Of a stretch of 64,000 bases of DNA, positions 35,076-54,211 are shown in pieces (the stretch's first letter is position 1; the number at the start of each line of letters is the position of its first letter). Both the position numbers and the translations under genes were made by a program. The notes beneath the pieces were generated by a model. It did no database searches. It saw only the letters and a program-made list of their open reading frames with translations, and had not been told where the DNA came from. Location: positions 372,001-436,000 of the forward strand of contig JAANBB010000003.1 in NCBI GenBank assembly GCA_014621425.1, written 5' to 3'. The DNA is from Cylindrodendrum hubeiense (Eukaryota > Ascomycota > Sordariomycetes > Hypocreales > Nectriaceae).

Positions 35076-35843
35076 AGTTTTGAGCATCGTGGCTGTTGGA
35101 GAGAATGAGGACTGAGTTCCTCTAGTCGCCGCGAGATTGAAATTCTATGAGTCGCCTTTTATGCAGACGAGATAATGCGTCAGAATATTTTGGCTGTGTG
35201 TGGAAGAATACAGGAGAGAATCACGGGTACTTATAACTGTATTTTGGGGCCATCAGAAGTGACGTCCCCCGCATCCATGCCCCCGGATTTCCCCACGTTT
35301 TTTTAATCTGGGGAAATACATGGCTTGTGAAGATAAGACAAGCTGCCAAGATCATTCTGTAAACAACCTGTAACACTCAGGATTGTCATTGCGTCCCCAG
35401 CTCACCTACACCTCCCCCACGTTCTCGCCTCGACTAGTGTTCCTAGCGCGCGGAATTTAATTCCGTGGGCCCATACAAATAGCACTAGAGCAAGCGGCTC
35501 CTTATTGGCTCGGGATTCCTTGGTCAGTTACTAATTCTAGACCGTGGGCTTGACCACCGCGCTTGCAGGCTTTTCCAGTTACATTACTCAGTTTCGGGGC
35601 CACTAATTCCCAAAATGTCAGTTCATTGCACCATGGGTTTCTAATCAGCCCTTGTTCCCAGAGACTGACCCCACTCCGGAAATGCAAATCCTGTTATTAA
35701 AGACACTTCCAAATGGAAAACACTGGCACTCCAAATGCACAACCCTGAACTTGGTGCATATTATTTCACAAGTGCTGAAGTCAATCCTTGTCTCACTTTA
35801 TCCCTTTCGTTCAAACCCCGTTTTGAGCATTCAACCCGTCCAA
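35076..35843. promoter_or_regulatory. Divergent transporter/OYE promoter
   Basis: The 768 bp separate two start codons, with a perfect palindrome near the midpoint (35451-35465). An in-frame extension of the OYE upstream to 35652 has no family similarity and is treated as leader. Nothing else assigned. Confidence 0.6.
35451..35465. promoter_or_regulatory. Cluster palindrome 1, CGGAATTTAATTCCG
   Basis: Perfect inverted repeat, CGG-N9-CCG, 376 bp from the transporter ATG and 379 bp from the OYE ATG. It fits a Zn2Cys6 dimer binding inverted CGG half-sites. Confidence 0.7.
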
Positions 35844-36938
35844 ATGGCTCAGTCACGGCTACTCCAACCTGTCAAAATTGGGAACCTCAATCTGAATCAT
35901 CGGATGGGGTTATGCCCCTTAACGCGTTATCGTGCATCCGATGATCATGTGCCCCTGGATATGATGGTACACTACTACACCCAGAGAAGTTCTGTGCCAG
36001 GCACGCTTTTGATCTCTGAAGGCACCTTCATCTCGGCAGAAGACGGCGGGTATGCGAATGCTCCTGGAATATACAATCAAGAGCAAATCGACAAGTGGCG
36101 CGAAATTACGGATGCTGTACACGCTAAAGGGTGCTACATCTTTTGTCAGCTATGGGCCCTCGGGCGTGCGGCCGACGTGGAGGTCACCAAGCGTGAAGGA
36201 ACGACTATTGTTAGCTCCGATGCAAATGCAATCGATCCGAATTCCGCACCACCTGAACGACTGAATGAAGTCCAAATCCAAGGTCGGATTCAAAACTACG
36301 CCACTGCCGCCTCGAACGCTATCAGTGCAGGATTTGATGGAGTCGAGCTCCATGGTGCCAATGGTTACCTCATTGATCAATTCATTCAGGACCGATGCAA
36401 CAAGCGAACGGATCTCTATGGCGGTAGCATTGAAAACCGTTCCCGCTTTGTTGTGGAGGTTGCTCGGGCGGTATGCGAAGCCATTGGGCCAGAAAGAACT
36501 GGGATTCGATTCAGCCCCTGGAGCACCTTCAACGGCATGAGGATGGATGATCCAGTCCCACAGTTCTCTGATGTTATTCGACGTCTTTCTCAACTCAAGT
36601 TGGCGTATCTTCACCTGGTTGAATCAAGAATTGCAGGCGCTGCCGATGTGGAAGCGTCCGACAAGCTCGCATTTGCTTATGACCTGTGGGACAATCCAAT
36701 CCTGGTGGCAGGGGGGCTAAAACCTGCCACAGCGCAGAAGCTTTTGGATGACGAATACCCTGAAAAAGACATAGTTGCTATGTTTGGACGGTATTTCCTG
36801 TCAACCCCAGACCTGCCATTCAGAATTATGGAAGGTTTAGAGCTGAACCAATACAACCGTGAGACCTTTTACACACCAATGTCGGCTGTTGGGTACACAG
36901 ATTATCCGTTTTGCAAGGAATACGCCGCAAAGAATTAG
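35844..36938 (+). CDS. Old Yellow Enzyme family NADPH:flavin oxidoreductase
   Basis: FMN-dependent ene-reductase, 364 aa, single exon, predicted to reduce the C=C bond of an alpha,beta-unsaturated ketone or ester. The start at MAQSRLLQP is chosen because it opens the conserved KIGNLNLNHRMGLCPLTRYR segment and sits in a CAAATGG context. The substrate-binding HxxN pair is His170-Asn173 with Tyr175 following (ELHGANGYLIDQF); the FMN-binding YGGSIENRSRF is at 192-202. The usual QLWHxGR reads QLWALGR at 102-108. Classical OYE length (about 360-400). In the cluster model it would reduce an enone before or after ring oxidation. Confidence 0.92.
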   Translation: MAQSRLLQPVKIGNLNLNHRMGLCPLTRYRASDDHVPLDMMVHYYTQRSSVPGTLLISEGTFISAEDGGYANAPGIYNQEQIDKWREITDAVHAKGCYIFCQLWALGRAADVEVTKREGTTIVSSDANAIDPNSAPPERLNEVQIQGRIQNYATAASNAISAGFDGVELHGANGYLIDQFIQDRCNKRTDLYGGSIENRSRFVVEVARAVCEAIGPERTGIRFSPWSTFNGMRMDDPVPQFSDVIRRLSQLKLAYLHLVESRIAGAADVEASDKLAFAYDLWDNPILVAGGLKPATAQKLLDDEYPEKDIVAMFGRYFLSTPDLPFRIMEGLELNQYNRETFYTPMSAVGYTDYPFCKEYAAKN

Positions 36939-36998
36939 ACTTTGACTTTAGATATAATCAGACGTATCAACAAAATAGAACATACGCAATCTTAGAGT

Positions 36999-37047
36999 AT
37001 ATAAAGTAGATAAAGAAAATATTAAGAAATTACTACCTACTTTATAT
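36999..37047. repeat. 11-bp inverted repeat downstream of OYE
   Basis: ATATAAAGTAG (36999-37009) and CTACTTTATAT (37037-37047) form a perfect inverted pair with a 27-bp loop, just after the OYE stop and before the convergent gene's 3' end. It could form a 3' UTR hairpin or be the end of a small element. Confidence 0.7.
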
Positions 37048-37147
37048 GCTTTAAGATAGATATCACTCAATGTAATCAAATGTACGCTTTTGTCGGTCAT
37101 GGATTATATACTTAATAATTTTCAGACTACCTTCTTGGCCTATAATA

Positions 37148-38548
37148 TTACCCTGGACCAAGATTGATACTGTTCTCCATTACTCTTCGAGACTCTTCGA
37201 GATCATCATCCAAGCTGTTCGAGATACATGAAGATGCTCGCAAGTAATGAGCATGTTCAGATCCTATATAGCTGGTTTCTTTCGCCATCACCTCTGAAGT
37301 CGAAGTCGTGATATTTGAGATCCTGATACCTTTTACCTCCGGGCTGGTTGTACTCTTACTATCAGAACTAGTGAAGTATGGCCCCAGCGACGGTAAACAT
37401 GCGATCATGACACTAATAGTACAGTCGAGAGTGCTCCATAGCCCTAGTCCGGTTAATTATTGCAAGTTAGCTAACAATAAATTTGGAAGTAATAATGAGA
37501 ACGTTCGGTAACATCAGAGAGGTGCTAGACATACCGACCGTGCTAACAGCAACTTTGAAGTTGATAGATGCGGATTGAATAGTTGCAAACCGAAACGTAT
37601 CAAATATGATATTGATAAGGCCGAGAAGGAAGGTAAAATACATTCCAACCTTAAGTGATCTTCGCATATTCAACCCTGGAATAACGAGCCAAGGCAGGGA
37701 GAATACTGTGGAGGTTAGCTTCTTCCCTGGTTCTGGACTGGCTATCTTAGCTTGTCTAACCTAATATTTCCCCAGTGATATGTAGTCCATAGCTGATATG
37801 GAATGTCGTGGCGCTGAAATGATGCGGACATTTATCTTGTGCACGAAGATTCCTATTTTGATATATTAGTTCTTATTCCTGTTTCATTTCTTTGTCTGTA
37901 GCCAGTTAATAAACTAACCAATTTGCAGATACAGGCAAACAAATGAAAAAAAGAACAAGAATATTAGTAATAAAGGAGATAAAAACGTAAAATATAACTG
38001 TCCATAGGAATAGTCTCCTCTTTCGCATGAACTCGGGGATTATCTGGAAGTACATCGATAGGAGTGAGGCCTTTGATAAGTATAGTGTCGTCAGGAAGGG
38101 TATATTAATAGCCCAGGATATCTAGATTATAATCAGCGTTCCCATTGTTTGTATGCCCAACTTTTGTAACATGAAGTTCAATTCTCGTACCTTTAATATC
38201 AATTCCAAAGCTTGGATATCTCCATGAAAGCCTCCTGCTGGTGCCGTTATTTGTGGCTCGAGTGCACCCAATTTCGTGAGCACAATATTCATGGAGTTCA
38301 CAGACACAGCAGAAATCCAAGCCGCGCACATAAGAATGTCGCTCATCAGCAATCGTCGACCTTGGACCTTGAGGCGAAGGTATATGCGGGCAACGATGAC
38401 GGCAGCAGCAAGCAAAATCAGAAGCCATCCCCAAATCTGCGTGATGACATAGCCTCGTCAATTATCGAGCACAGACGGTGGGGATATGAGGTTGCTGGAG
38501 TGAGGGACGAACCAAAATGGGTTTTGGTCCAGGCGGTTTCACATGCAT
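37148..38548 (-). CDS. Fungal rhodopsin-domain (Pth11-like) seven-helix membrane protein
   Basis: Integral membrane protein of the fungal rhodopsin domain family (PF20684), 359 aa. Six exons fit: 38477-38548, 38191-38436, 37919-38121, 37761-37852, 37535-37705 and 37148-37443. The order of family blocks is intact: ARIYLRLKVQGRRLLMSDIL (helix 2), MNIVLTKLGAL, IPFLTTLYLSKASLLSMYFQIIP, the Cys-containing NLRAQDKC loop, RSLKVGMYFTFLLGLINIIFDTFRF, and WSTLDCTISVMIACLPSLGPYF, rebuilt across the last splice. A hydrophilic tail follows. The first donor (GTCTGT) is weak, so the N-terminus is uncertain. Exons 3-5 and introns are markedly AT-rich compared with the neighbours, which may mean RIP-like drift or foreign origin, yet no stop interrupts the model. 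Possible surface sensor; ligand unknown. Confidence 0.68.
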
Positions 38549-39941
38549 GACGTCTAGATTCCTTCTCTAGAACAGGTTTTCAGGTGTGTAAGTCAAGGCT
38601 GTTTGTGGGCACAGCATCAACCAGGAAGTGCAAGGGCGATGATGAAACGATTGACCAGGATCTGCCTTCGATAAACGAGTGCACATGGGGACTGTGCTCT
38701 TTTGTACTTTTGCCAGATATTCACGACCCAAACTGGCCAACCCTAATTAAACGCCTCCTGACTAGAAGGCGTGTTCCAGATCCAAGGACATGGCTGGTGG
38801 CGCTGGAGGTTACCATACCTCAGCCTCTGTTTTGATCCAGCCAATGACAGGCCCACTCACGATCGATTCCTGCTTGTGCATTCCTCCAGCCGCGCTTAGT
38901 AACCGCATTCCAGTTCAATGCTGTTGAATGCACTCGTATCTAGTCTTGAATGGGCCCTGTCTATGGAAGCTTAAGAAAAAAGCATAAAAGTGCGCCCACA
39001 GTCCCTTTGTAGTGTAGCTCAAATCTGATCAAGAAGGGAAGATTCGGATGCAACGTCGAGACTGGGGATAGTTACGGACAGTAATAAGTAATGCTTACAC
39101 CAATTCTGGATGTGCGTGCCTAACTGAAGAGAAAAGAATCGAAACATCGATAACTACTGTAACGGCAGTGGCATGGGACGGTAACACGACAGAAGCTGTA
39201 ACTGAACGCTAAAGAAGAAATGAGTCATGTCCATCTTAGTAGAGTTCATTAGACACTAACTTTAAGTACTTGCCTGTTTGGCCAGTGGCTGATACCTAAA
39301 TATGATACTGGGTGCCCCGTGGTACCATCACAATAACAAGCAGGTATCGCGTTGTTTCAAGCTGATCTTTGAGAAAATGGGCTTGTTACCGGAACTGTTT
39401 ACGGAAATCCTGGATCCAGTGGGTTGCATGCAGAAGTTGGAGTGGAGTGGGCAGGCTGCCCCAAGAATAACAAACTTGAGCTTCTAAGAATCTATGGTAG
39501 TGGTGGTTTGACATTGTGAGTTATTCCCCTTGAACGTACAACAAGACTTCTGGTATGATCATCTCCCCCGATGATTCGCTGTTGAGTGCATTGTACCAAG
39601 GTGATACCATAATCAGAATATCACGCTAAAGGAAACTGCCTTGCAGTCGTTTATGTATGTTTTGCATGATAGCCGCTGGGGAGAAGTTGCAGAGCGGAAT
39701 TATACTACGGGTTTTAATCCCGCGTCAACACACTCTGGTGGGGACCGATCTGAACAATTCCGTTGCAGGCCAGGCACAAGGCTTCTGTGATAGATATAAT
39801 ACCAGGAACTGTGCTATCCATTTGGTTGAACATCATTTGATTGACACCGCATTTTGAATCTGATTCCAAACCATACAAATATTATTGCAAGACTCTCGCA
39901 CAACATCATCTCAATACTGCAGTCCCTCAGCTTCTTGCGCC
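38549..39941. other. Divergent intergenic region upstream of rhodopsin-domain gene and SDR
   Basis: 1.4 kb with no supported gene. A plus-strand open frame of 83 codons at 38584-38835 has no recognised domain. It contains the cluster palindrome at 39708-39722. Confidence 0.5.
39708..39722. promoter_or_regulatory. Cluster palindrome 2, CGGGTTTTAATCCCG
   Basis: CGG-N9-CCG with CGGG/CCCG arms, 220 bp before the SDR start codon. It differs by one base from the site in front of the lactonase-like gene. Confidence 0.65.
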
Positions 39942-40864
39942 ATGTCTGTATCGAAAGTCGCAATTATTACTGGTGGTGCTTCTGGAATGGGATTGGCCGT
40001 CGCAAAGCATCTGTCTGAAAATGGTTGGCAGACTAACCTGTTTGACTTGAACCAAACAGCCGGAGATGCAGCCGTACGTGAGATTGAGAACTCGAGGTTC
40101 ATGGCTGTCGACGTCACATCTTGGTCGTCATTGTCTAATGCCTTCGACCTCGTCTTCAAAGCCCAAGGCAGGTTGGACTTTGTTTTTGCGAACGCGGGAA
40201 TAATACAAATGCACAACTTCTACAAGCGAGTGGGCGAGCTGCCACCTCCCGAACTACCACAAACAAGCATCGACATCAATTTGAAAGCAGTTATTAATAC
40301 GAGCTATTTGGCACAACATTACTTCAGAGCAAACACGCATGAGAAATCTGATCCGGTTCTAATCATGACAGCGAGTATCGCAGGCTTTGTACGTATAACC
40401 TACTCCCAAAAGTGCTCAAGGCAAGATTTTAACCAGCCTATTAGTACGCACAAGAGTTTAATCCTCTCTACTCGGCATCCAAAGCGGGTGTCGTCAATTT
40501 CTTACGCTCAATTGGCAAGCCCTTTCACGATGATGGTATTCGTACATACGCTATCTGTCCAGGGACCGTAAGGACAAACCTCCTCTCTAGTGAAGTCTGG
40601 GATTCATGGCCGGAGGATTACTTAACGCCACTTGATACTATCGTCTCAGCCGTTGATACTATGCTAGCTGGTGGGCCGATGACAGACGCAAAGGGTAGGC
40701 GCATAGAAAGCGGCTCCGACTATGGTCTTGCTGTGGAGGTGTTTCAGACAAGCATTTATTTTAGAGACCAGATGGACTACGTCAACGAAGGGATGAGAAA
40801 AATATGCGAAGCTTCAAGTTTGGACTCTCATCAATCGCATTTCGATGCTGCGCATAAATCTTAG
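39942..40864 (+). CDS. Short-chain dehydrogenase/reductase (SDR)
   Basis: NAD(P)-dependent classical SDR, 288 aa, oxidising a secondary alcohol or reducing a ketone. Exons are 39942-40388 and 40445-40864, separated by a 56-nt intron. The cofactor motif is TGGASGMG (10-17), an acidic residue follows in LFDLNQ (favouring NAD), FANAG replaces NNAG, and the active site is Ser in MTASIAG with Tyr158-Lys162 (YSASK), which appears only after splicing. CPGTVRTNLL is the usual post-catalytic loop. Sequence style matches fungal 15-hydroxyprostaglandin-dehydrogenase-like SDRs. The start is the first Met of the conserved strand. In the cluster it could make the ketone for the monooxygenase. Confidence 0.92.
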
Positions 40865-41430
40865 GTTATATCAAGATAATACAGATCTCTATGATGCCAC
40901 ACTTATTTAAGGTTCATGCCAAGATGACTTGATGACTGGAGAACCGGGGGCTCCTATGTGAGCATAGAAGCTCATATCGGGTCAAATGCAAAGATAACCT
41001 CGTGAAAATAGTCAAAACTCAGTGACCCTTGCAAGGGTATTGATTGACTACTCGGATTGTGCATCTGACTGTTGAGGGTCTGCTGTTTGCTTGACGGTCT
41101 AGCCACAAACGATTGCGTCCCGTCATATCAAGCTACAACTAGGCTGCGACAGTAAATAGTTGGTGCGGGGTATAAAAGAACAACCGAGGTCTTCAATGAT
41201 TGGGTATGTCGAGATTTCCGCATACACGTGGAAACATGTTCCGTAAGCTGCATTTCCGACAAGAGGGGGTCATCCGTCCTCAGCAACCGGGATTTTAGAA
41301 GTTGCGAGGCACATTGACTAGTGTGTTACGATATAAAGAACGTCATGGTCATCCTTTGTCAGTGAATCCATGTGATTCGTACATTTAATTTAATTGAAAA
41401 GGGATTTTCAGTCCTCCCAATATTCGAGCA
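40865..41430. promoter_or_regulatory. Promoter region of the EthD gene
   Basis: 566 bp. GCGGGG followed by TATAAAAG at 41165-41178 looks like a CreA-type site next to a TATA-like element. A degenerate cluster palindrome is at 41229-41243 and a CGGGATTTTA half-like site at about 41288. Confidence 0.5.
41229..41243. promoter_or_regulatory. Cluster palindrome 3, TGGAAACATGTTCCG
   Basis: One arm is perfect (TTCCG) and the other has one mismatch (TGGAA for CGGAA). It is 188 bp before the EthD start. Read on the other strand it begins CGGAACATG, exactly like site 4. Confidence 0.5.
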
Positions 41431-41983
41431 ATGGTTTTCCAGAAAATCGAACACAACTTCACGCATCCTCAATTGAATTACGATTCCACGCCGAATTTTC
41501 AGCCATGCATTAAAGTCTCGGTTTTCTTCAAGAAACTCGATTCTATCGACTATGACACCTTTTTTGGACACTGGCAGACAGTCCACGCTGATTTAGCCAT
41601 CGCAACTCAGGCATTCCGAAAGCATATTGTGCGATATAGTCAGGTATGCCGACATGATTCCGCTTTGTCTAGAGTCGAAATACTAGACAATACTCTAACT
41701 AATCATTCTACAGCATCATCAGACAGCGGAAATGAGAGAGCGGGCTCGAGGCCTCGGCGAGAACGTTCTGCAATATGATGGATGTGCTCAGCTTTGGGTC
41801 AGGACCTGGGATGACTGGCTGGCATTTTACAACAGCAAAGAATATGCTGCAGCGCTGAGCGATGATTGCAACCGCTTCATGGCATTGCCAATGACTTACA
41901 TGGTCGGTTATGAGAATTTGATTGTCGGAGATGCATCACCAACAATGGGCGGAAGTAGCGGCATTGATATCAGTGCCTTGTAG
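41431..41983 (+). CDS. EthD-domain protein
   Basis: Small alpha/beta ferredoxin-like protein, 160 aa; exons 41431-41643 and 41714-41983. The EthD domain (PF07110) is seen in IKVSVFFKKLDSIDYDTFFGHWQTVHADL (spanning about 28-56) and in the second half in YNSKEYAAALSDDCNRFM. The HWxxxHA segment carries the conserved His pair. Family members act as small dehydratases or decarboxylases in fungal polyketide pathways or as accessory proteins to oxygenases in catabolism. The role here is unknown; the location among redox enzymes suggests it acts on a pathway intermediate. Confidence 0.85.
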
Positions 41984-42195
41984 CTCTTCGATTTGCTTAA
42001 GATGATGAAATGAAGAGGATTAAGTCCGTAAACTTTGATCAACAATGAACGAGATATGTTTTCACTGGGCCATTCGTGATTGAGTTTGAGTTCATAAAAG
42101 TACTGAAGATCTGTGTCAGTAAAGTGTAGCCTGCCAGCACAAAGAAGAATTTCAACACGTAAAAGATTCATGGCTTGAGGATCAGCATTTATTGC

Positions 42196-43280
42196 TCATC
42201 TGTAATAACTAGGGAGAGCTTTCGTATCGAGAAAATCAGTGCTACAGCTAAAGTCGACCCAGTTATCAAGAGACTCCAGAGTCTCTAAACTTTTTCGCCT
42301 CATGATATCGACAGCATCAGACCCAATAGGGATGCGTAACGACAAGTTGTTGACTTGTCGCTCTGTGAGATTTTCCAGCCTTGCAATATCCAGCATTCTT
42401 TCAACAGCCAACGAGGGGTCTCCTGGCTGTGCAGCTTGCGTAACCGCATGAATGTCAGCAATCTGTCGTTTTATCGTTGCATACTCCGCGATGCCCTGTT
42501 CTGCATCCAAAATCCCCTTCTTATTCTTCGCAGCGAGGATATTCGTGCGGAACTGGCCTAATACAAAAATGTGAACACGGATACCGATTGGTTGGACCTC
42601 CTTTGCTAGACACTCGACGGCCCCTAGAATTCATCAGTTAGAAAACTCAGTCAAGACGTGGTTAGCTACATGCATGAAGATCATGTAGCTGGATAAATCA
42701 ACGAACCTTCCAGTGCAGACTTAGAAGCGCTATAAGGGCCACCGGCAGCCACTCCGTGCCATCCAGCTATACTTCCAAGAAACAAGATGGTTCCAGACCT
42801 TTTGGTACGCATCTTAGGAAGCACAACACTGGTTAAGTTTAGAGCGCCGAAAAGGTTAACCTCAAACTGCTGCTTAACATCTTCGTCGCTATATGACGTT
42901 AGAATGGCTTCAAAATTGCATTAAATTAGGTAAATAAAGTCGACGATGCCATACCTCAACTCTTCCCAGACACCGGACAAGACGTATCCAGCATTGTTAA
43001 CGAGAACGTCGATGGTACCCATGTGGGCGATGGCTTCTTCCACCTTGTTGCGGATGACCTCTTTTGGTGCCGTAACATCAAGCTGAATGGTCTCAACATT
43101 TTTCACATCCTTTAGGTGGCTTAGGTCTGAGATTCGACGAGCTGTTGCAATCACCTTGTCGCCGCGGGCCAGTATCGCAGGCACAAGGCTACGGCCAAAT
43201 CCGCTAGAACACCCCGTAATGAGCCATACTTTCGCTCTACTTGGTTCAGCATCTTGTGGTGCTTCACGAGTATCCCCCAT
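42196..43280 (-). CDS. Short-chain dehydrogenase/reductase (second)
   Basis: Classical SDR, 311 aa, exons 42955-43280, 42707-42888 and 42196-42623. The cofactor motif TGCSSGFG is at 22-29 with Arg-Arg in ATARRIS, which favours NADPH. NNAG is in VLVNNAGYVL, the catalytic Ser in LGSIAG and Tyr161-Lys165 in YSASK. The long C-terminal arm (about 200-311) is typical of the fungal 17-beta-HSD-like/retinol-dehydrogenase-like SDRs that often accompany monooxygenases. The start was placed at MGDTRE; the upstream Met at 43382 would add a Leu-rich stretch without conservation. It converges on the EthD gene, and its promoter faces the 3' end of the BVMO. Confidence 0.92.
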
Positions 43281-43399
43281 GGTAGCAGGTGTAATAAGTT
43301 GGGTGACTGCCGAATCGTCGAGTCCGGAGATGAAATGAACACGGCGAAGCAGGAAGATAAGAAGGCAATGGAAATGAATCATGCGCCAAGGGTCAACTG

Positions 43400-43420: not shown

Positions 43421-43450
43421 TACTTTGAGGGGTTGCGGCACTGAGATGAG

Positions 43451-43465
43451 CGGAACATGATTCCG
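43451..43465. promoter_or_regulatory. Cluster palindrome 4, CGGAACATGATTCCG
   Basis: Perfect CGGAA/TTCCG arms, N5 spacer, 171 bp before the second SDR start codon. Confidence 0.7.
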
Positions 43466-43847: not shown

Positions 43848-45741
43848 CTAAAACCTGAGCCGGTCGAAAATGGTAGACACAGAGTCTCCAAGAACTGAGG
43901 GATTCCGGTACACTGCCCACATACCAAGGCCAGAGGCGACGCCCGATAGAGGCCAGAAGACCTCGGTAAGATTTCTTCTGAGCTTGTGGAGAAGCCACAT
44001 ATGCGATCCGCCAGTCATCGTAAAATCCTTCCACCTGGGAAATGCAGTTGCCTTCCAGAATGTAACCGCCAACCCTGGCCATGCTGCGGAGTTGCGACCA
44101 GCACTGTTAATGTACCAGTTGCTGCAGCCGGCAGCAAACACAGTCTCGGCCAAGACCTTATCCAAATTGTGAACGAACTGTTCTTCTGCTTCCTCCTTGA
44201 CTTCAACGACATTTGCGTATCCATCAATGATGGGTTTGACCAATGTCGATACAATGTAAGCGACTTGTACCTCTATGGCAAAGATGACAGAATTGAACGC
44301 TGGGAAGGTATTCGGTCCAAATCTATTATCGATACGTTAGCACGGAAATATAGTTAGTAGCAACATGAGTCACTTACAGAATGGCAAAGTTCGGTTGATT
44401 ATGGACGAAAGTGCCCATGTAGGCTTGTGCACCTCTATTGTTGTTCCACTGGTCATGCAAATCCTCACCACCTTTACCAATGATTTTCATCGGAGCCAGA
44501 AATGATTGCACCTTGAAACCTGTAGCCAATATAACAGCGTCAAAGTCTTCCTCCTCGCCGCTCTCGCTGATGATTCCAGTCTTGGTGAATTTCTTCGGCC
44601 CTTCCGGAAGCAAGTTGATATTTTCCCGGTGGAGGGAAGCAAGGTAGCCAGGGTCGTAGATTCTCCGCTTACATCCCAGTGGAAAGTCAGGGACCAGAAA
44701 ACGATGGTATTTTTCAGGGGCCGTTGCGTAAATGTACTGACGGGCTGTTTCTTCAATGACCAGTCGCTGCTGTACCTGCGTCGGATCTGAGCCGTAAACT
44801 GATGCGAGCTGGTCAGTCTTCAGGAAGGTGTCCAGTCGATGTAAACGTTGCCATAGAGGGACATAGCAGAACCTAAACTTATCCCACCCAGAAAAGAGTT
44901 TGTTGGGTCTTGGATGGTACCATTGGGGGCTCCGAGCATACTGGGTGAGCTTTTTTACCTGTGGCGCAATGGATGGGACAACCTGCGCAGCACTGCAGCC
45001 ATTACCAATTACGGCAACGCGTTTCCCCTCCAAGTCAAACGAATGATCCCACTCAGCCGTGTGAAATATCTTTCCCTGGTACTGGTCCATGCCGGGATAA
45101 TTGACACCCCTGGGCTGTGAAAAACCTCCCACGGCTGACAAGAGGATGTTGCATGACTTGTTAAACGTCTCACCGGTTTCGTTGTCAACAAGGGTAACGT
45201 GCCACATATCGCCGACCCATTGAGCACTTAAGACCTCCGACTTGAATCTGAAATGAGCTCGCAAACGGAACTTGTCTACCGTTGATTCTACATCTGCGAA
45301 GGGAATCAGTATAAACAACCCTGCGACTGAGCACATCCCTTACAGTTCAGAATCTCTTTTTGATCAACCAACTCCTGTGACCAATTCGGGTTCAAGTTGA
45401 AGCTGAAGGAGTAAAGATGAATAGGTACGTCAGAACCACTGCCAGGATATTAGTTATTCCGCCGAGACGAAGTGACAATTATGGCTTACTCACCATCCCG
45501 GGTATGAGTTCACTCTCCAAGTCCCTCCGAGACCTTCGTGTTTTTCATAAATCTGATGTTTTGCGGTCAGCCATCAAATCCTCCTCCTCTAGAAATATGA
45601 AGTTGCTTGCACATATATGTGCTTCCTAGATTGTTGGTCACATACCGTGAAGTTTGTGAAGCCGAGTTTCCATTTAAGGGCATGGGCCATAGCAATGCCA
45701 GCCACACCCCCTCCAATGATGATTACACTCGGGCCGCTCAT
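43848..45741 (-). CDS. Baeyer-Villiger monooxygenase (class B flavoprotein)
   Basis: FAD/NADPH monooxygenase, 546 aa, converting a ketone to an ester or lactone. Exons are 45646-45741, 45494-45552, 45344-45438, 44378-45293 and 43848-44322. The FAD motif GGGVAG is at 10-15, EKHEGLGGTW follows, and YPGCGSDVPIHLYSFSF is rebuilt across the second intron. The BVMO fingerprint FxGxxxHTxxWD is present as YQGKIFHTAEWD (155-166, Phe replaced by Tyr). The NADPH motif GNGCSA is at 180-185, the ATG motif is LATGFK, and the GPNT block appears after the last splice. Length and order match type I BVMOs. A steroid, terpenoid or cyclic ketone could be the substrate. Confidence 0.93.
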
Positions 45742-45956
45742 TTTGGGAGGAAATTGATGTCAGAAAGCGAGTCGTGGTGCAGACAAATGGCGATGTGTAT
45801 TGAGGATGCCAAATTCTTTGTGAGCGGAAATGATGTGCTTTTGATGATGAAGTCTACTAAAGTACCGGGGGTGCAGAGTATACAATGCGACTAGTCAAGG
45901 CTCAGATCACCATTGCCCACTTCCGGGAGCACAAACCGGACCAGTGTACGGAGTAG

Positions 45957-45971
45957 CGCGATTTAGTTCCG
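45957..45971. promoter_or_regulatory. Cluster palindrome 5 (degenerate), CGCGATTTAGTTCCG
   Basis: It has the same ATTTA-centred arrangement as sites 1 and 8, with a mismatch in the left CGG. It is 216 bp before the BVMO start. Confidence 0.4.
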
Positions 45972-46014
45972 TCAGTATTTACTAAGGAGACGGTATCGAA
46001 GGATAAAACCCGAC

Positions 46015-46029
46015 GGGAATGCAATTCCG
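46015..46029. promoter_or_regulatory. Cluster palindrome 6, GGGAATGCAATTCCG
   Basis: The right arm is perfect; the left arm is GGGAA preceded by C. It is nearly identical to the site in front of the second regulator (one base different), 274 bp before the BVMO start. Confidence 0.55.
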
Positions 46030-46885
46030 GTTCAACCTTGTGTGGCAGGCTTGTCATGTTTTATGAATGGCATGGCTATTTCGATTAACTATCTTATAAG
46101 TAAACACGCCGCTCACGATATCTTCATTGCGATACATCCGTGCTCGGAACGGTGTCTCTGTGCAGTTGACCATACAATTATTTTCAAGACTGCTAATACG
46201 CACGATGATATTTAACTTAGATTGAGTCAACTCTCGGAGACAACTTTTAATCGAACGCGAATACGCCACGATCCCATCATTTACAATTTACAGGGCGCGG
46301 TGAGGTTGGAAGCTATCTCTCGTGACTGGGGGAAATTCCGAGTTTGACAGTCTTAGGCTGGACAAATTCAATGCCCCCTCCCTCCTACTTTCCCAAATTC
46401 GGTATCATTGGATCTGTATAATAACGTGTTTGAAGGCCGTCAACGTTTCTTGAAACAACGACAAGGACTCAAACCCATCGACAAGCTCAAGATTGATTGA
46501 TGGCAAGGATGATGTGGATGACTCCTCGATGTGAAGCCGGTAGATACTTCATTTCATCTAAATTCCATGCAAAGCAAAATAAAAACGATCACGTAGCGAT
46601 GAAAACCCAAACACGCCCCATGACATGGCTTGGCGTCTGGGGTATGGCGGGGAAGCAACCCTCATTAGAGTACTTAGTCATGTGCTTCGATCCAACCCCG
46701 CGTGAGATCCACACAATTCCCCGCTACTTGGTCATGTCCTCAAGCCCGAAAATCCGGGGTTGGCCTACATGACACTTGACATTCCGGAAACGCGGCTTCC
46801 TTGCAACATGTTCTTCTTCAAGCACCTACCTACCTCCCCAAAAGAATCCACATCAAGAAGTGAGGATTTGGAATAGCTTGGTAGC

Positions 46886-49800
46886 ATGGCAGGTAAGAAA
46901 CATGTCACGAGCGCTTGCCTGAACTGCAGGCGACGCAAAATCAAGGTATGTTCGAGCCCACACAGTGTAATGTCGTGCGTGACATGGCGGTTGCTGACCA
47001 TTAAACCCCCTTGCGCAGTGTGATGGAAAGGATGAATGCTCTCACTGCAGAGTATCCAAACACACTTGCATCTACAACGCTGAGGCTGATTTGCGAAGGT
47101 AAGTGACCTGAGACCAGATGATATTAGTTTACTGGCTGCTGATAATGGGTTCATAGGGCGTCAGCGAAGAAGGCGGCTGGAAAGCTCCGAGCGCGTCTTG
47201 CCCTGCTAGAAGAGACACTGCAAGAAAATAACATCGAGCTACCACCCAATCACCCAATCGTCACAGAAAAGAGAGGATCACCCCGTAATGTGAGATCTTC
47301 GGAATTGGACAATGAAGTGGGTAGCGGCATGTCAGAAGGCTCAACTACGTTTGCGGATTCTAGCCAGTGCAGCCGCAATGCGGGTTCCAAAGAGATCCAA
47401 GTTGCGGGTGGAGTATCAGAGAGCATACTCCCCAATAATGAGCATTTCTCGATGCCGGAGAGTGTCACATCGACACTAGAACCTCCTGACATGAATGGTC
47501 ACATGAGCCCTTCAGAGGCTCACAGATTAGATGAGCATTTTGGTGTTGCTAATCTCGAACTCCTCGACATGGGTGACACCTACGACGAATTTATGCTTCC
47601 ATCGATATCTAAACTGGATTGTTCACAATTTCCTGGGTTCTTGCCCAGCTGTGAAAGCGAAGATAACGACTCGGACGCCGACAGTGACATCACAAAATTC
47701 CTAGCGGCTCGTACAGGGTCGCTCCGGATCGCCGAAGATGGGCAATTACGCTACTACGGACCAACGTCTAATCTACACGCTTACCAGAGTGATTTACAGT
47801 CCCTCTCGCAGTCAACAATCCGCCATGTTGCCACTGAAGGCAACGCTGTTCTGAAGCGACTGGGCCTTGATTACGACGTACCGCCATCACTCGAAGAACA
47901 CCTCGCGAGACTCTATTTCGCTTGGGAAGATCCAGCAATTCATGTTGTTGACGAAGATACATTCTTTCAAGAGAAGCAACGATGGACTGCTGGGGAAAGA
48001 CGCAGCCCCTACTACTCGGAAACATTGAATAATGCCGTGTTAGTATAGACAGAGGACTGCATCCGAGAGGATCTTGAATATTGCTAACTACGGATTAGAT
48101 GTGCTATCGGGGCAACTTTGAGTGCCGGTGAAAAGCTGAATGTGCCAGAGCCTGCTCCCGAGTTCTTTTCAGCACGCGCCAAGGCCCTTCTTGACATCGA
48201 GATGGACAGCCCCACTGTGGCCACAGTCCAAGCGCTTGTTGTAATGAGCGCTTCCGAGGCTTCCTTCACACGGGACGCACGTGGTTGGCTGTATAGTGGT
48301 AATTTCTGTCACTCTTTCCTATGTCCGTGAGCTTGCAGCTAATCCTTCTTGACCAGGAATGGCAGCCAGGCTTAGCGCAGACCTTGGACTTCATCTGGAT
48401 AATACAAAGCACGGGCATAGTAACAGCTCACTTTTGGCACAGCAGGACCTAGACATCAGGCGAACTACCTTCTGGGGTGTCTTCATTCATGAAAGGTAGA
48501 TAAGGATTTGCTCTCCGGATTGCTATTCGTGATCACTGACATGCATTAGTATGTGGAGTCTTTACGTGGGACGGCCCTGGAGCTTCGGTATTCCAAGTAT
48601 AACCACATCCCGTCCAATAGGTTACCAGGATACGATGAAGAACAGAATGTGGAGGCCGTATCCTAAACCTGCCGGCCAGTCCGTGATTCCTGAGGCGGGC
48701 ATCTTCTTCCCGCTCGAGGCGTGTACCGATGCAAATATTACACTATGCGAGTTTATGCGACGGATCAACCTAACGCTGTACGTTTTATCCCAAGGTCCAG
48801 TTATCGCTAGTCTTGATAATTATTAACAAGATCTTTGACAGCTATTCAGGACAGGTGATGAGTCTGGATCGACTGGTGCGGTTTCTGAAACCCACCAAAC
48901 AAGAGCTGTTGTTATGGCATGAGACCATAGAGCCCTCCTTGAGAGTAAACTTGGCACAATCCGATATTATCTATGTTCCGGCGATCCTGCAACTCCAGTG
49001 AGTCATCATCTAACCCATATATTTAATGGTGAGCACCTTTTAACAGTCCTACCTTAGCATGCAGTTCTATGGAGTCCTGATATCTCTCCTTCGACCTTAC
49101 TTATCCAGCCAGTTAATTAGCTACAATGAGATCTTCAACTCCGCAGAAGATCAAGCTCAAATTCTCCAGGTCGAGAGTGGATGCATTTCAGCAGCGCACG
49201 AAATTACTGAGCTCTTGCGTTGTTACCAGAGACAACACTCGCTTCGACGGTCAAATATTCAGATCGTACACATTATTTTCACTGCATCGTTGGTATTCAT
49301 ATATGATGTTTGTTCCCGGAGCTATGCTGAGTCACGGGCCTCCCTTAATGATTTGCAGTTTTGCTGTCACGCGTTGGGTGAGATTGGTCAATCATACGGT
49401 AATGCGACGCGAGCATTAGAAGTTATCATCCTGGTCAAAAGTGAATGGCAGCGCTTGGCTGCAGTAAGATCCAGCTGCAGCCTGAGTAAGAAAAGGCCTA
49501 GCTTCAATGGTAGCCGACACGATTTGGATAAAAACGACAATCGGAAAAGGCGACAGACCTTTCCTTCTTTGTCCATGATGGACTTGCCTGAGACGCCAGG
49601 GTTTGTTTTGGATTCTTCACTGAGACATTTTCAAATGCTCGGCGATAACGTCATTGAAAGTACTCTCAATGCGGCCTATGAGGGACCAGGAGAAGATATG
49701 TTCGACCCATCGCTTCTGCTCGACACGACAGGCTTTGCAGTCAACGACCTGATGGCATCAATGAGAGACAATGACGCTCAGCATCATCTCCCTGCTCTTA

Positions 49801-49925
49801 GTGAGTCGCTACGAGCCACAGATAACCCTACAATTCAACCTGAAAAGGCGATCGGAGTGAACGATAGCCCAACAATCAAGGATGCGTCACGTTCAGGAGA
49901 AGACGCAGAACAAACGAGCTCGTAG
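46886..49925 (+). CDS. Zn2Cys6 transcription factor (cluster regulator A)
   Basis: Nuclear regulator, 870 aa. Exons are 46886-46945, 47019-47098, 47157-48038, 48099-48298, 48357-48495, 48550-48777, 48842-48997 and 49058-49925. The zinc cluster Cys11, 14, 21, 27, 30 and 37 (CX2CX6CX5CX2CX6C) is split by the first intron and followed by a coiled coil (KLRARLALLEETLQENN). An acidic Ser-rich region spans about 100-230, and the Fungal_trans domain about 250-600 (LARLYFAWEDPAIHVVDEDTFF, GMAARLSADLGLHLDN, FWGVFIHES). The layout resembles the nit-4/NirA-type group. The junction 48777/48842 was chosen because nearer acceptors give stops or the wrong frame. It shares its promoter with the BVMO gene. 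Confidence 0.85.
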
Positions 49926-50978
49926 CCGTTTGCTATGTCCCGGGGAGATCGCGATATCTCCTGTTCATCAGTGGGCCCAAAGGTAGACCGACACTTGTCA
50001 CAACCTTGACGAATTGCGCCTATTATGCGCTCAAATTCCAAGGCGAGTAGCTGGCATGAAATGCAGTAGAGCACCAAGATACGTAGCTACAAAAATATTG
50101 AGCACACCCCTAGCAGATACCTTCAGGAGACAAGAGTGATTGTTTTCATCGCCTCAGACCAAAATTGCGAGGTGATGCCCGAAGCACCCTGTGGCGCCTA
50201 TCCTATTATTATTCCTGGCACACCCATGCTGAAACAGTGCAACCAACTGGCTCATTACTGTAAGATTTAGGAAGTCATTCACAACAAATGCGATCCATTG
50301 GTACAATAGGAGGTTCTCTCATGTTTTATAGATGCTCATATATCATTGACCCACGGCATTGGAGATCGCTGGTATCGGCTAATAGCGGCAACTCAAAGTA
50401 CAACCAGATATTAGTTGTAAGGGTGGGAAATTCAATACGATGGATGTCACGAAGTATTAGAATTAATTCTGCTATTGTCGATTTTCTTATCAAATGCGCA
50501 GATCCCAATCCACTCGCGCCCTCAGAGCAACGTGAATTCGTTGTGCACTCCCACGCCGGCTTGTTAGACAGATGACTTCCGTCGATTACATGGGCAACCC
50601 CCCTTTGAAATACAACTGGAAAGTTTTTTTTGGAGTATGAGCTTGATGTCAGAGCAGTCGGAGGGATGATATATGTGCTCATTTACATCAAAACAGACTG
50701 CCGATAAACATGGGATAGATTCATATCTCACATGCTCTGAGAAGGATCGCGAAAATCCCCATGAGCCATGAGCCATGATTTGTGGAGACAATGTCCAATC
50801 AATAAGCTATTGCACTTCATTTTTACACTCTCGGGAAATGGTCAGAAGACCCGCAGAATGGAGGCGCTATTGCGGGAATGTAATTCCGAGGCTCAGTTCA
50901 GCCTGTACTTGAAGATGCACATCAACGCGACCTGGATGAAGACGAAAACCCCAAAGTTACGCCCCAACAAAATACAAG
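49926..50978. other. Intergenic region before second regulator
   Basis: 1.05 kb. A short CATGAGC tandem (about 50760-50778) and the cluster palindrome at 50874-50888 are the visible structures. Small frames on both strands are not supported as genes. Confidence 0.5.
50874..50888. promoter_or_regulatory. Cluster palindrome 7, GGGAATGTAATTCCG
   Basis: Preceded by C (CGGGAATGTAATTCCG). It ends 91 bp before the start codon of the second Zn2Cys6 gene, suggesting autoregulation or control by regulator A. Confidence 0.6.
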
Positions 50979-53605
50979 ATGGAAGGGGCAAATTCCTTCC
51001 GCAGACGCAGAACATTTGGATCACGAAAGAGAGCCACAAAGGCTTGTCTCAGATGTCGTCAAAGAAAGGTCCGATGCGACGTCACGCGGACATCACCACC
51101 TTGCACGAATTGTCGATTGGATGAACACCCTTGTACAGTGCCACGAAGAGCAAATGAGTAGTAAGATACAATCCAGGGGCTATTGAAACTTAACTAAAAT
51201 TTTGCAGCTTTCTGAGCCATGAGGAAGTGCCATCGCCTTCTGTGATAGGTGGGAGCGGGTATCAACTGCAGGGGCAGGACACTTCATTCCAGCCTCCAGA
51301 ATGTCTCTCAACCTTAACGCAACCGAACTTAGACCTGGACAATAATATCTGGAATAGTCCAGACTTAGGATTTGAAGACGATGGGAGTTTTCAAGGCGCA
51401 GTGTGTAACAACACGCTTGTCGATGACATTCGTTACATAAGTCAACTGACAGATGAGGCTAGCGAAAGCTCCAATGTCATATCACCTACACAAGGCGATG
51501 GTTTCGGTGATCAATCAAGCAAATCGCCCGAGACACCGGTATCAACACCTGCTTGTTCTGGATCTCAGGTTGCGTTTTCATCATTTGAATTCTTGACTGA
51601 CCTAGACCTCGAGGCTATGGATATTACGGACAGTGATATTAAGTGTCTCAAGTCAGAGGGATGTTTGCGAATTCCTATAAAACCACTTCTTGACAACCTC
51701 CTCGCACACTACTTCTTGCACATCCATCCAATGCTTCCACTTCTTGATGAAGGCGACTTTTGGGAAGATTATGATCGAGAGCTTGATAAAGCTGAGGCTG
51801 GGAAAGTACCGCAATTGTCATTGCTTCTGTTACAAGCAATGCTTTTCGCCGCCTGTACCGTATGTATCACTCCAACACTCATAACGAGCGCTGGCTGATG
51901 GTCAGTGAAGTTCATATCCGAAGAGAGTATCGATCTGCTGGGGTTTCAGAGCATTCGAGAAGCAAAACGATCTTTCTATAGCAAAGCAAAGGTAAGGTGA
52001 ACATCCCCCCCCCTATCCTCGTCCAACAAGACCATATAGTGGAAGCATTTTATAAATTATAGCTAACAAATATTTGGTTAGCTTTTGTATGACCTTGGAA
52101 TTGAAACAGACCACTTATCCATAGCTCGGGCTGCTCTACTTTTGACCTACTGGTGTCCAGCTTCCAGCAACGGACGAAAGAAGCCAAATAGTGCATGGCT
52201 TACTGTTGCCATACAACACGCCAAAGATATTGACGCCGATCAATACTCGGAAGTGGGACGACACTTAGAGGCGATTTCGAATGAGGAAAAGCATAGGCAG
52301 AATGAGCTGAAACGTCTTTGGTGGTGCTGCATCATTCGCGACCGAATCATGCCTCTCTGCGTTCGAAGAAATACCCAAATCACGGAAAAGGACTTCGATT
52401 TCAAAACACACACCCCTTTGGGCCACGAAGATCTTTCACGGGAGATTGACCGATCAAGAGTATACACCGCGGACACAAAACGCTCGCTTATAATTATCCT
52501 GTCTCGGATGACCGAGCTATGTGTCTGTCTCACTAATATCTTAAATTTGGTCTATCCAACCAGAACTTTACCCATGTCAAGTAACGATTCATCACTACAG
52601 AAATTAAAACAAAGCCAACACCATAAAGATGATCTACGCCAATGGTCCATTGCAACCATCAATACATCCCCGATCTTTTCAGATGCCTGTTCTGCATCCT
52701 GCTCCGAACCAACTTCCCACAAAGATACAATTGTTCTTTATACAAACCTTGTTTGGATATACTATCAGTATGAAATCTTCGAAGATTACTTTTGGGAATC
52801 AATTGTTGACTTTAACTTCAGTTCTGCCATAATAGCACTATCCAACTACCAGTTTCACTTTGTCGTTCTGTTCAACACGACTAAGCTCTATAAGCCTTGG
52901 GATCATTTAGTATCTGTCGAAAATACCCGCGATGAGCTCCTCCAGTCCTCAACAAGTATTACTGCGTGCCTCAAACGACTACTGGGTCGTCACCTGGCTC
53001 GCTGGCTACCGAGTAGTGCAGTTGGGTGCACAGCACTTCCATTAGCGTTGCACATTCTTGACATCAAATTGAGCTCGGCATTTTCCGCTTCAAAAAGCAT
53101 GGTCCACACTCACACTCAAATGGCCGAAACCCAGCAAAGGCTGAACCTCCTCATTCAAGCTATGAGGGAGTATCATCCGAAATATGAAGGCACAGATTGG
53201 GTTTCGAAAACGATCCGATATTTCATGGAGTGCACATATCTTGATGAACCGATATCCACCTTGCCAGACCCTCTTAATTCAAATCATCGACAATGGGGGG
53301 AACGTTCTGACGGTGATTGGATTGATGTCCTTACCAACAACCCATCTTACTACCTCAGATTATCATTAACCATTGATCTTAGCCTGAGTCAGGATCGGCT
53401 GCCGCAAGAGATGGACTTCCCACTAGATATAAGAGGGGTACTCAACAGGCTCGGATGTTTTATGCCTATTGTATTCGGTGAACGAAGCATGGATCCTCCT
53501 GGGAAAGACGAGCAATCGGGTTCAGTTGTTCAAGACATTGCTGGATGGATTGAAAACGACAGGTCATTGTATTTTGCGCTAGAGATGGGTCTTGGTCCCA
53601 TGTAG
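50979..53605 (+). CDS. Zn2Cys6 transcription factor (cluster regulator B)
   Basis: Nuclear regulator, 812 aa. Exons are 50979-51160, 51208-51859, 51911-51991 and 52082-53605. The zinc cluster is Cys23, 26, 33, 42, 45 and 52 (CX2CX6CX8CX2CX6C) in RATKACLRCRQRKVRC, with basic RRRR and SRKR patches before it. The fungal TF domain includes LLAHYFLHIHPMLPLLDEGDF, GFQSIREAKRSFYSKAKLLYDLG rebuilt by splicing, and ELKRLWWCCIIRDRI. This order resembles the cutinase/lipid-regulator CTF1-like group, known for catabolic control (inference). The donor at 51161 (GTAAGA) is preferred to an in-phase alternative 3 nt earlier. A cluster palindrome lies just upstream. Confidence 0.88.
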
Positions 53606-54211
53606 ATATTTGAATTCACTAATTGTTTCTCGGAAGAACCATGCACACACATCGTCGATGTTGAAACTAAATTAGGTTCATTTTTGGAGTGTGGGATGGA
53701 GAAATAGACCAACCGAAAATACTTCATGTCCACCAACAGAGATGATTTATGTAGGTCCCCCTTCCATTTACTCGCCAAATGCACTATACTATGGATAGGG
53801 AAGAATTTGAACGACAGTCGCATTCATATATCAATGGTCACGTTGTTTGAAAATCTTCAAGACAACAATCAGATGTGGAATGCCTGCACCTACAAGATGT
53901 AATGGCTCTAGCCCAGTTGAAATATGGGTCTTGAATGGGGATAAGCATCTCCGGAATCCCATTGTGTCGGGATTTAATCCCGGGGTTCCCAAGTAATGCC
54001 GTGCACATCAAGTTCCGTTGTTATAGTAGCTCGAAATGGTTAGTTGTACTCACCGCCACTAAATGAGCCTTTGGGTATTGGTCTTCATTAGTCATGGTAT
54101 TTCCCTCCACAGCAATCTCTCAACCCATCGATTAAATTGCCCATTTATGAAGCTAGAGCCCCGGAGTTTCCAGGTTAACCGTCTGCCGTGTCCACCATCC
54201 TTCATTGAACA
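53606..54211. promoter_or_regulatory. Promoter region of lactonase-like gene
   Basis: 606 bp with a perfect cluster palindrome and adjacent CCGGAATCCC and CGGGGTTCCC blocks around 53950-53990. Nothing else seen. Confidence 0.55.
53968..53982. promoter_or_regulatory. Cluster palindrome 8, CGGGATTTAATCCCG
   Basis: Perfect 7+1+7 inverted repeat, 230 bp before the lactonase-like start. It differs from site 1 only by an A/G-T/C change in each arm. Confidence 0.7.

Follow-up and report, generated by a model that had tools for sequence, protein, structure and literature searches.

A recurrent 15-bp near-palindrome marks the promoters of one gene block in Cylindrodendrum hubeiense and is a candidate operator of a Zn2Cys6 regulator

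Introduction

The inverted-CGG regulators Gal4 and Ppr1 recognize sites with spacings of 11 and 6, respectively, and cluster-specific Zn2Cys6 regulons, such as that of GliZ, combine a cluster-encoded regulator with a motif repeated in its promoters. For such Zn2Cys6 proteins, homodimeric binding to a pair of CGG triplets is typical (PMC5559640), and in the Gal4/Ppr1 type it is predominantly the CGG ends that are bound, while Put3, the proline regulator with the site CGG-N10-CCG, contacts spacer DNA besides its half-sites (both from PMC5729217). The site of fission yeast Pho7, TCG(G/C)(A/T)xxTTxAA, joins a CGG-type triplet to specific A/T-rich bases (PMC5559640).

Here we analyze a window of 64,000 nucleotides from Cylindrodendrum hubeiense (contig JAANBB010000003.1, positions 372,001 to 436,000), in which an earlier note had pointed out eight related 15-mers upstream of the genes of one block. 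The predicted sites resemble that of Put3 in their inverted CGG-type triplets (both intact in four of the eight), presumed symmetric dimer form and specific spacer bases, but the spacing is 9 rather than 10, the half-site extends to CGGAAT and the target genes are different. The architecture of Gal4 and Ppr1 finds a likeness here as well, in a Zn2Cys6 module followed by a putative coiled coil; unlike in their sites, however, the information in each half amounts to 2.3 bits for its inner three bases and 2.9 bits for its end triplet. Pho7 differs in reading a single triplet without an inverted pair. The in-cluster regulator and repeated promoter motif of fungal metabolic cluster regulons also recur (cf. 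the abstracts of PMC7022936 and PMC4006717), whereas GliZ-type regulons are set apart by the two regulators of this block and by the absence of a synthase gene among the ORFs scanned here. The palindrome was not found in the open-access literature; the kind of system is well known, while the word and the cluster appear to be uncharacterized.

Results

Direct inspection of the sequence confirmed all eight 15-mers (Table 1), together with the exact CGGAA-N5-TTCCG form of two of them (35451 and 43451) and the perfect 7+1+7 symmetry of 35451 and 53968. The spacing between the inverted halves is constant in all eight, and on the plus strand every site ends in CCG. Both triplets are intact in only four (35451, 39708, 43451 and 53968), the others starting with TGG, CGC, GGG and GGG. 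Additional CGGAAT half-sites accompany site 2 (at 39695) and site 8 (at 53952).

Table 1. Sites and genes of the block (window coordinates)
Feature	Position	Strand	Sequence or domain	Remark
Site 1	35451..35465	.	CGGAATTTAATTCCG	Halfway between the transporter and OYE genes, which diverge; perfect 7+1+7 palindrome
Site 2	39708..39722	.	CGGGTTTTAATCCCG	Upstream of SDR1
Site 3	41229..41243	.	TGGAAACATGTTCCG	Upstream of EthD gene; uncertain
Site 4	43451..43465	.	CGGAACATGATTCCG	Upstream of SDR2
Site 5	45957..45971	.	CGCGATTTAGTTCCG	Upstream of BVMO
Site 6	46015..46029	.	GGGAATGCAATTCCG	Upstream of BVMO; 58 bp from site 5
Site 7	50874..50888	.	GGGAATGTAATTCCG	90 bp upstream of TFB start codon
Site 8	53968..53982	.	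CGGGATTTAATCCCG	Upstream of MBL; perfect 7+1+7 palindrome
Sugar-type MFS transporter gene	33094..35087	-	PF00083, E 8e-11	Domain match on one exon; start ATG 35087 by hand, exon model provisional
OYE family ene-reductase gene	35844..36938	+	PF00724, E 1.1e-87	Start by hand
SDR1, short-chain dehydrogenase gene	39942..40864	+	PF00106, E 5.3e-22
EthD-domain gene	41431..41983	+	PF07110, E 4e-5 and 9.9e-11	Two exons
SDR2, short-chain dehydrogenase gene	42196..43280	-	PF00106, E 4.1e-16	Start by hand
BVMO, Baeyer-Villiger-type flavin monooxygenase gene	43848..45741	-	PF00743
TFA, Zn2Cys6 regulator gene	46886..49925	+		Gene model; later exons provisional
TFB, Zn2Cys6 + Fungal_trans regulator gene	50979..53605	+	PF04082, E 2e-9
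MBL, metallo-beta-lactamase-fold lactonase-like gene	54212..55429	+	PF00753, E 3.1e-6

The sites had been placed mostly 170-230 bp before the start codons, which holds for five promoters, EthD among them. The distances are 219 bp for SDR1, 187 bp for EthD, 170 bp for SDR2 (from 43280), 215 and 273 bp for BVMO, 90 bp for TFB and 229 bp for MBL, and the site at 35451, common to two genes, lies 363 bp from the transporter start and 378 bp from the OYE start. The distances for OYE, SDR2 and the transporter depend on hand-picked starts, which replaced the 35682, 43382 and 35274 of the script. The TFA promoter (46386-46885) contains no site, its best match being equaled by 1468 of 2305 background segments, and the nearest site is 856 bp upstream.

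Since the 15-mers had, as the earlier note admitted, been found by eye, chance combined with search bias had to be considered, that is, a choice of similar words from a long sequence. When exact inverted pairs of 4-mers were counted without guidance, over spacings of 0-20, the same motif ranked first, with GGAA-N5-TTCC in five of the eight promoters, against a maximum of four in 1,000 random sets; the corrected p values were 1.3e-3 for GGAA-N5-TTCC and 2.8e-5 for GGAAT-N3-ATTCC. Raw copies were weaker evidence than counts of distinct promoters, as 3 of 300 random sets reached five copies of some 4-mer pair and 32 of 1000 reached three copies of some 5-mer pair. CGG-N9-CCG, under which the palindrome had originally been announced, did not survive: it occurs five times where 1.2 occurrences would be expected (p 0.008 before and 1 after correction), a result that speaks for chance as far as this pattern goes, and we dropped it as the motif. 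What carries the signal is not the bare triplet pair but the longer half-site CGGAAT/ATTCCG, and the motif is better given as SGGRAT-N3-ATYCCG.

In the held-out scoring, a PWM and IUPAC patterns were derived from the noted sites, and promoters were delimited with the site positions already known. The motif model was rebuilt without the tested promoter and compared with 2,261-2,305 background segments of equal length, taken from 200 kb of other genome sequence (19 of 20 pieces from one contig) and the rest of the window. The best match in six of the eight promoters was unmatched by any segment (0/2261 for the transporter/OYE promoter with site 35451; 0/2305 each for SDR1, SDR2, BVMO, TFB and MBL). 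At the level of single sites, the leave-one-out PWM supported seven of eight, of which six had no match at their score level in the 200 kb and one (46015) had a single match; none of the seven score levels was reached in the window outside the block. The exception was 41229, whose score level had 130 background matches (rest of the window: 32). When the model was built without the EthD promoter, the top match there fell at 41401 instead (580 of 2305 segments as good). Although 41229 retains GGAA-N5-TTCC, and EthD is thereby one of the five promoters in which this pair was counted, we do not regard it as an equal member, and it may be a case of selection by eye. The earlier suspicion that sites 3 and 5 were the weakest was borne out for site 3 and not for site 5 (45957), which is well supported. 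As unguided dyads and leave-one-promoter-out scoring recover the motif independently of the held-out sites, chance with search bias is hardly credible as an account of the whole set.

A different origin, in which a mobile or duplicated element left the 15-mers behind or one ancestral promoter was copied, might be considered because the two SDR genes make some duplication in the block conceivable. When all 28 pairs of 80-bp flanks were compared, however, identity averaged 28% and reached 32.5% at best, and the likeness ends at the 15-mer. Since the flanks are unrelated, the sites did not arise by copying of a single repeat, and this origin is very improbable.

Across the 47.5 Mb genome, SGGRWTNNAATYCCG occurs at 19 places, five of which fall within the 18.5 kb of the block, and the exact CGGAATTTAATTCCG has a single match. 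The presumed rarity of CGGAA-N5-TTCCG, by contrast, did not hold in general, because its 49 palindromic places are close to the approximately 45 expected (4^-10; backwards control 63); it is the clustering in the block that matters. Neither is the core GGRAT-N3-ATYCC rare by itself (162 places; backwards control 59). No similar density was seen in the sequence compared, which comprised the 200 kb, the rest of the window and the genome-wide patterns. Held-out scoring, unguided dyads and genome-wide concentration thus bear out the original observation that a recurrent near-palindrome marks the promoters of one block.

The 14 places of SGGRWTNNAATYCCG outside the block, and near-matches elsewhere such as TGGAATTTAATTCCG, would also suit a regulator of broad or even global reach, the cluster being rich in sites by happenstance among its many targets. 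This is quite improbable, as the outside places amount to 0.3 per Mb against five in 18.5 kb and are unclustered, none lying within 20 kb of another (closest pair 27.6 kb apart). We retrieved seven near-matches and listed their reading frames, comprising four of the 14 outside places and three others; two of these four fall within open frames, one of 689 codons and one of 232, which is weak evidence that they are not promoters.

MBL and BVMO have paralogues in the genome, and a motif shared with these was rejected on the basis of five short paralogue loci, which scored at most 13.2, against at least 14.9 for every supported site. One of these loci nevertheless carries two notable matches, scoring 13.2 and 13.1, as the 200 kb background has one match of at least 13.0.

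Among the enzymes, the closest solved relative of OYE is chanoclavine-I aldehyde reductase (4qnw, 368 bits), BVMO matches cyclohexanone monooxygenase (E 1.4e-50) and G7Z17_g488 (98%), and the relatives of MBL include N-acylhomoserine lactonase and 4-pyridoxolactonase (E 1e-6 to 9e-5). An ergot-type pathway, to which the OYE match might point, was set aside. In Neonectria ditissima one gene model joins BVMO and SDR, and SDR2 is 76% identical to its second part over 285 residues.

Parts of a core SDR2-BVMO-TFA-TFB-MBL appear to be linked in other fungi, as judged from gene numbers, gene models and contig sizes. N. ditissima has AK830_g3536 (TFB), g3537 (TFA) and g3538 (BVMO+SDR2) with consecutive numbers, and a Fusarium oxysporum gene model runs TFA-TFB-MBL in the same order as the window. 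The longest contigs of the BVMO, TFA and TFB relatives are equal in size in Thelonectria olida and in Pseudomassariella vexata; for TFA with BVMO this is so in eight species (8 of 33 TFA rows), and for TFB with BVMO in five, among which two besides P. vexata have contigs above 1 Mb. No single other species among the relatives compared was shown to have all five together, and a search of viral contigs with a TFA relative gave no match.

Two Zn2Cys6 regulators had been reported in the block, and both TFA (C-x2-C-x6-C-x5-C-x2-C-x6-C) and TFB (C-x2-C-x6-C-x8-C-x2-C-x6-C) indeed possess complete zinc clusters. The nearest solved relative of TFA is Put3 (E 1.7e-4, zinc cluster); other TFA relatives comprise G7Z17_g489 and further proteins, many with PF00172 and PF04082. 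Leucines 57, 61, 64 and 68 of TFA stand in d/a register after the zinc cluster (by eye), with a comparable leucine-bearing stretch in those of its relatives that were compared; TFB has no leucine-heptad stretch there. Many TFB relatives carry PF00172 and several are named cutinase transcription factor 1 beta. CCTCGG, the element of FarA/CTF1-type factors, is not enriched in the block promoters (0.69 per kb versus 0.63 in the background), and we rejected it as the element of the block, although TFB is tied to that family only through the names of its relatives.

Of the two, TFA, with the leucine-heptad stretch after its zinc cluster, is the likelier binder of the palindromes, and we give it roughly an even chance. 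Alternatively, in a variant that overlaps with this reading, TFB could bind the palindromes and autoregulate through 50874, with TFA acting upstream or elsewhere. The strong site before the TFB start, the lack of any within 850 bp of TFA, the complete TFB zinc cluster and the five species with equal TFB and BVMO contigs would agree with this; the missing leucine stretch, the background rate of CCTCGG and the eight species with equal TFA and BVMO contigs argue against it, and we regard it as a tentative and rather unlikely alternative.

Discussion

We consider it likely that a cluster-specific Zn2Cys6 transcription factor uses the 15-bp near-palindromes as its operator. The assignment fits the two such genes in the block, the dyad symmetry and the CGG ends, and the apparent linkage of the regulators with BVMO, SDR2 or MBL in other fungi agrees with it. 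Since the word precedes most cluster genes and is hardly found in the rest of the genome, a switch protein encoded by the cluster itself probably docks there. Against a Zn2Cys6 operator, EthD lacks a model-supported site and TFA, the favored binder, a proximal one. GGAAT-N3-ATTCC may also be read by a factor that is not a zinc-cluster protein, which is conceivable because the outer C varies in four of the eight sites and CGG-N9-CCG is not significant after correction.

For the Zn2Cys6 operator, we infer that the factor would bind as a symmetric dimer, one subunit per CGGAAT half-site, and would switch on the transporter/OYE pair, SDR1, SDR2, BVMO, MBL and TFB together, and possibly EthD. As TFB has a proximal site and TFA has none, the simplest circuit would be one in which TFA activates the structural genes and TFB, and TFB then acts as a further activator.

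The set of enzymes, and the lack of a synthase in the ORFs scanned, suggest that a cyclic compound is taken up and broken down, and the best reading of the cluster is a small catabolic or detoxifying pathway. The predicted steps would be ene reduction, interconversion of alcohol and ketone, formation of a lactone by Baeyer-Villiger oxidation and opening of that lactone. It is a speculative, on balance improbable, extension that the locus represents a 9-bp-spaced Zn2Cys6 recognition class in which the inner AAT/ATT bases count for almost as much in recognition as the CGG ends, and that this class serves a feed-forward circuit of two regulators (TFA activating TFB, both acting on the enzymes) which has travelled with a cyclic-ketone breakdown cluster across several orders of Sordariomycetes.

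As regulation biology, the locus illustrates a familiar principle well, and it allows one to ask cleanly which zinc-cluster protein recognizes a palindrome with 9-bp spacing. The analysis yields a defined, rare candidate operator and two candidate regulators for an apparently uncharacterized catabolic cluster of fungi, related to clusters in Fusarium, Neonectria, Ilyonectria and others, so that the cluster could be switched and its substrate found.

A palindromic element concentrated in one gene cluster

All eight 15-mers described in the earlier note were confirmed by sequence at their positions in the window, which covers bases 372001-436000 of contig 223 of the 47.5 Mb assembly. The block carrying them encodes a sugar-type transporter, an old yellow enzyme (OYE) reductase, two short-chain dehydrogenases (SDR1 and SDR2), an EthD protein, a Baeyer-Villiger-type monooxygenase (BVMO), a metallo-beta-lactamase-fold lactonase-like protein (MBL) and, as the note had stated, two Zn2Cys6 regulators, TFA and TFB. 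Gene models were built by a small script with hand correction, which included choosing the starts of the transporter, OYE and SDR2; the models for TFA and the transporter remain provisional.

Coordinates of the palindromic sites and associated features (window positions unless a locus is named)
Feature	Position	Strand	Gene or promoter
Site	35451		Divergent transporter/OYE promoter
Site	39708		SDR1
Site	41229		EthD
Site	43451		SDR2
Site	45957		BVMO
Site	46015		BVMO
Site	50874		TFB
Site	53968		MBL
Gene	35844-36938		OYE
Rhodopsin-like stretch	37470-38457	minus	Between OYE and SDR1
Gene	46886-49925	+	TFA
Gene	50979-53605	+	TFB
Four CGGGATT half-sites	L028 300-402 (300, 324, 348, 396), contig C13		MBL paralogue

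To limit the influence of the reader's choice of sites, three tests were selected: a leave-one-site-out matrix, a leave-one-promoter-out comparison and unguided counts of inverted k-mer pairs. In the first, each site in turn was left out of a symmetrised weight matrix, which was then run on 200 kb of sequence from elsewhere in the genome and on the remainder of the window. Seven of the eight sites scored at a level reached in the 200 kb by no match (six sites) or one (46015) and nowhere in the rest of the window, so that the similar motif density in unrelated sequence that was to count against the element was not found. The score of site 41229 was reached by 130 background matches. With a matrix from the seven supported sites, the top score in the window outside 33001-55500 was 10.3, versus at least 14.9 at the seven sites.

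When whole promoters were held out, none of 2261 background segments did as well as the transporter/OYE promoter, and none of 2305 as well as SDR1, SDR2, BVMO, TFB or MBL, each taken separately; the segments overlap (step 100) and the trials are not independent. The claim that the palindrome marks the promoters of the block is supported for these six and uncertain for EthD, which was equalled by 580 of 2305 segments, its top match lying at 41401 and not at 41229. The TFA promoter was equalled by 1468 of 2305.

Exact inverted k-mer pairs at spacings of 0-20 were then counted in block promoters drawn from the gene models after the sites had been seen, with borders differing slightly between counts. 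The two strongest were GGAAT-N3-ATTCC, with 3 copies and a corrected p of 2.8e-5, and GGAA-N5-TTCC, with 5 copies and a corrected p of 1.3e-3, the latter in five of eight promoters (transporter/OYE, EthD, SDR2, BVMO and TFB). Among 1000 random promoter-size sets, none had any exact 4-mer pair common to at least five segments (12 reached four), and 2 matched the three promoters observed for 5-mer pairs. Copy counts regardless of segment were less telling, since 3 of 300 random sets reached 5 copies for 4-mers and 32 of 1000 reached 3 for 5-mers. The CGG-N9-CCG form under which the sites had been introduced did not hold up as the motif (5 observed versus 1.2 expected; p 0.008 uncorrected, 1 corrected).

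The consensus of the seven supported sites is approximately SGGRAT-N3-ATYCCG, with 2.9 bits per half in the end triplet and 2.3 in the next three bases of the symmetrised matrix (2.8 and 2.2 when all eight are included). Sites lie 90-378 bp from start codons, site 35451 lying at nearly equal distances (363 and 378 bp) from two divergent genes, and their flanking sequences are unrelated to one another. An additional CGGAAT half-site occurs 13 bp upstream of site 39708 and 16 bp upstream of site 53968, and the TTCCG/CGGAA word occurs 5.5 times per kb in block promoters (sites counted) versus 1.8 elsewhere. All eight sites have an intact CCG end on the + strand, though the genes lie on both strands; the four with one imperfect end have it on the same side (chance about 1 in 8), which may be explained by the reader's search form. 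A symmetric rescan of the window gave no strong site of opposite bias.

CGGAA-N5-TTCCG, the exact form given in the note, is not special in itself, since its 49 palindromic places in 47.5 Mb are close to the roughly 45 expected by chance and below the 63 of the backwards control (the pattern reversed). SGGRWTNNAATYCCG gave 21 strand matches, which fall at 19 different places, five of them in the block, versus 8 strand matches for its backwards control. CGGAATTTAATTCCG occurs exactly once genome-wide and, with at most two mismatches, gave 48 strand matches versus 53 for the control, being ordinary outside the block. GGRATNNNATYCC occurs at 162 places versus 59 for the control, with four block places as read from the verified site sequences. 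Because the sites themselves served to define these patterns, the counts gauge concentration, not discovery.

Candidate regulators

The cis-element is real and concentrated in one cluster, which holds two candidate regulators. The zinc cluster of TFA has Put3 as its nearest solved structure (E 1.7e-4), and leucines 57, 61, 64 and 68 follow about 19 residues after it, in heptad register as judged by eye; leucine heptads after the zinc cluster are the usual dimer stretch. The TFB zinc cluster is nearest to Leu3 (E 0.002), with no leucine-heptad stretch after it in the sequence, and several TFB relatives carry the name cutinase transcription factor 1 beta. According to PMC5559640, Zn2Cys6 homodimers typically bind inverted, direct or everted CGG pairs. 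Put3, whose site is CGG-N10-CCG, makes contact with the spacer too (PMC5729217), which suits the present sites with their informative inner bases. The TFB promoter has a site at 90 bp and that of TFA no close site, from which we propose an order in which TFA would act on TFB and the enzyme genes.

The closest BVMO homologue is G7Z17_g488 of Cylindrodendrum hubeiense (98% identity), the visible difference being 12 residues absent from the present model at an intron boundary. The TFA counterpart is G7Z17_g489, whose public model (599 aa) lacks stretches present in relatives. No C. hubeiense protein is among the best 120 of 311 TFB homologues; the public record may thus lack an annotation of TFB or carry a truncated one.

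Apparent linkage in other fungi

Linkage elsewhere was judged from proteins. In Neonectria ditissima, TFB, TFA and BVMO have relatives in AK830_g3536, g3537 and g3538, respectively; the gene model of AK830_g3538 runs two parts together, the second matching SDR2 at 76% identity across 285 residues. Eight of 33 TFA entries have a longest contig of equal length to that of a BVMO relative, an indirect sign that the two genes are linked, in C. hubeiense, N. ditissima, P. vexata, T. olida, Coniochaeta sp. 2T2.1, F. nematophilum, Phialemonium atrogriseum and, among more distant relatives, Annulohypoxylon truncatum; the other 25 have no partner among the best 120 of 4105 BVMO entries. The comparison further suggests that in N. 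ditissima, P. vexata and T. olida TFB is linked with the other two. It also points to a TFA-TFB pair in F. mangiferae (FMAN_03715, FMAN_03716) and to a TFB-BVMO pair, placed on long contigs, in Plectosphaerella cucumerina and Ilyonectria sp. MPI-CAGE-AT-0026. In F. oxysporum, one gene model of 1264 residues joins portions corresponding to TFA, TFB and MBL, in this order, and TFB is fused to MBL in two others; these public fusions (P0257, P0225 and P0232) are probably annotation errors revealing gene order. SDR2, BVMO, TFA, TFB and MBL were seen all together in no single other species among the protein relatives compared.

Paralogues and the putative role of the cluster

MBL and BVMO paralogues share three other contigs of this genome (C412, C13 and C423), possibly as related clusters. 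Upstream of the MBL paralogue on C13, at the short locus L028, the four half-sites form a direct repeat, the first three at 24 bp intervals, some 280-380 bp ahead of the first match to an MBL-like exon (C13:224533). Under the cluster matrix two of them reach 13.1 and 13.2, and 200 kb of background gives one match of at least 13.0; one possible reading is a related regulator reading direct repeats.

Between OYE and SDR1, the rhodopsin-like stretch has a sub-threshold match to the fungal rhodopsin family PF20684 and yielded no sensible gene model from the script; it may be a decayed gene. OYE scores 368 bits to chanoclavine-I aldehyde reductase versus 289 bits to its next solved relative, NADPH dehydrogenase 3. 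Scanned neighbours include arginase, an amino-acid permease, a P450, further transcription factors, an FMO, an aldehyde dehydrogenase and transporters, and no synthase was found among the 30 ORFs (part of those in the window) run against Pfam. Searches of an open-access library did not find the palindrome or the cluster in print, and the system is ordinary in kind. Because BVMO, the lactonase-like protein, the SDRs, the ene-reductase and the transporter occur together with no synthase seen, the protein families suggest that the cluster would take up a cyclic ketone or enone and open its ring.
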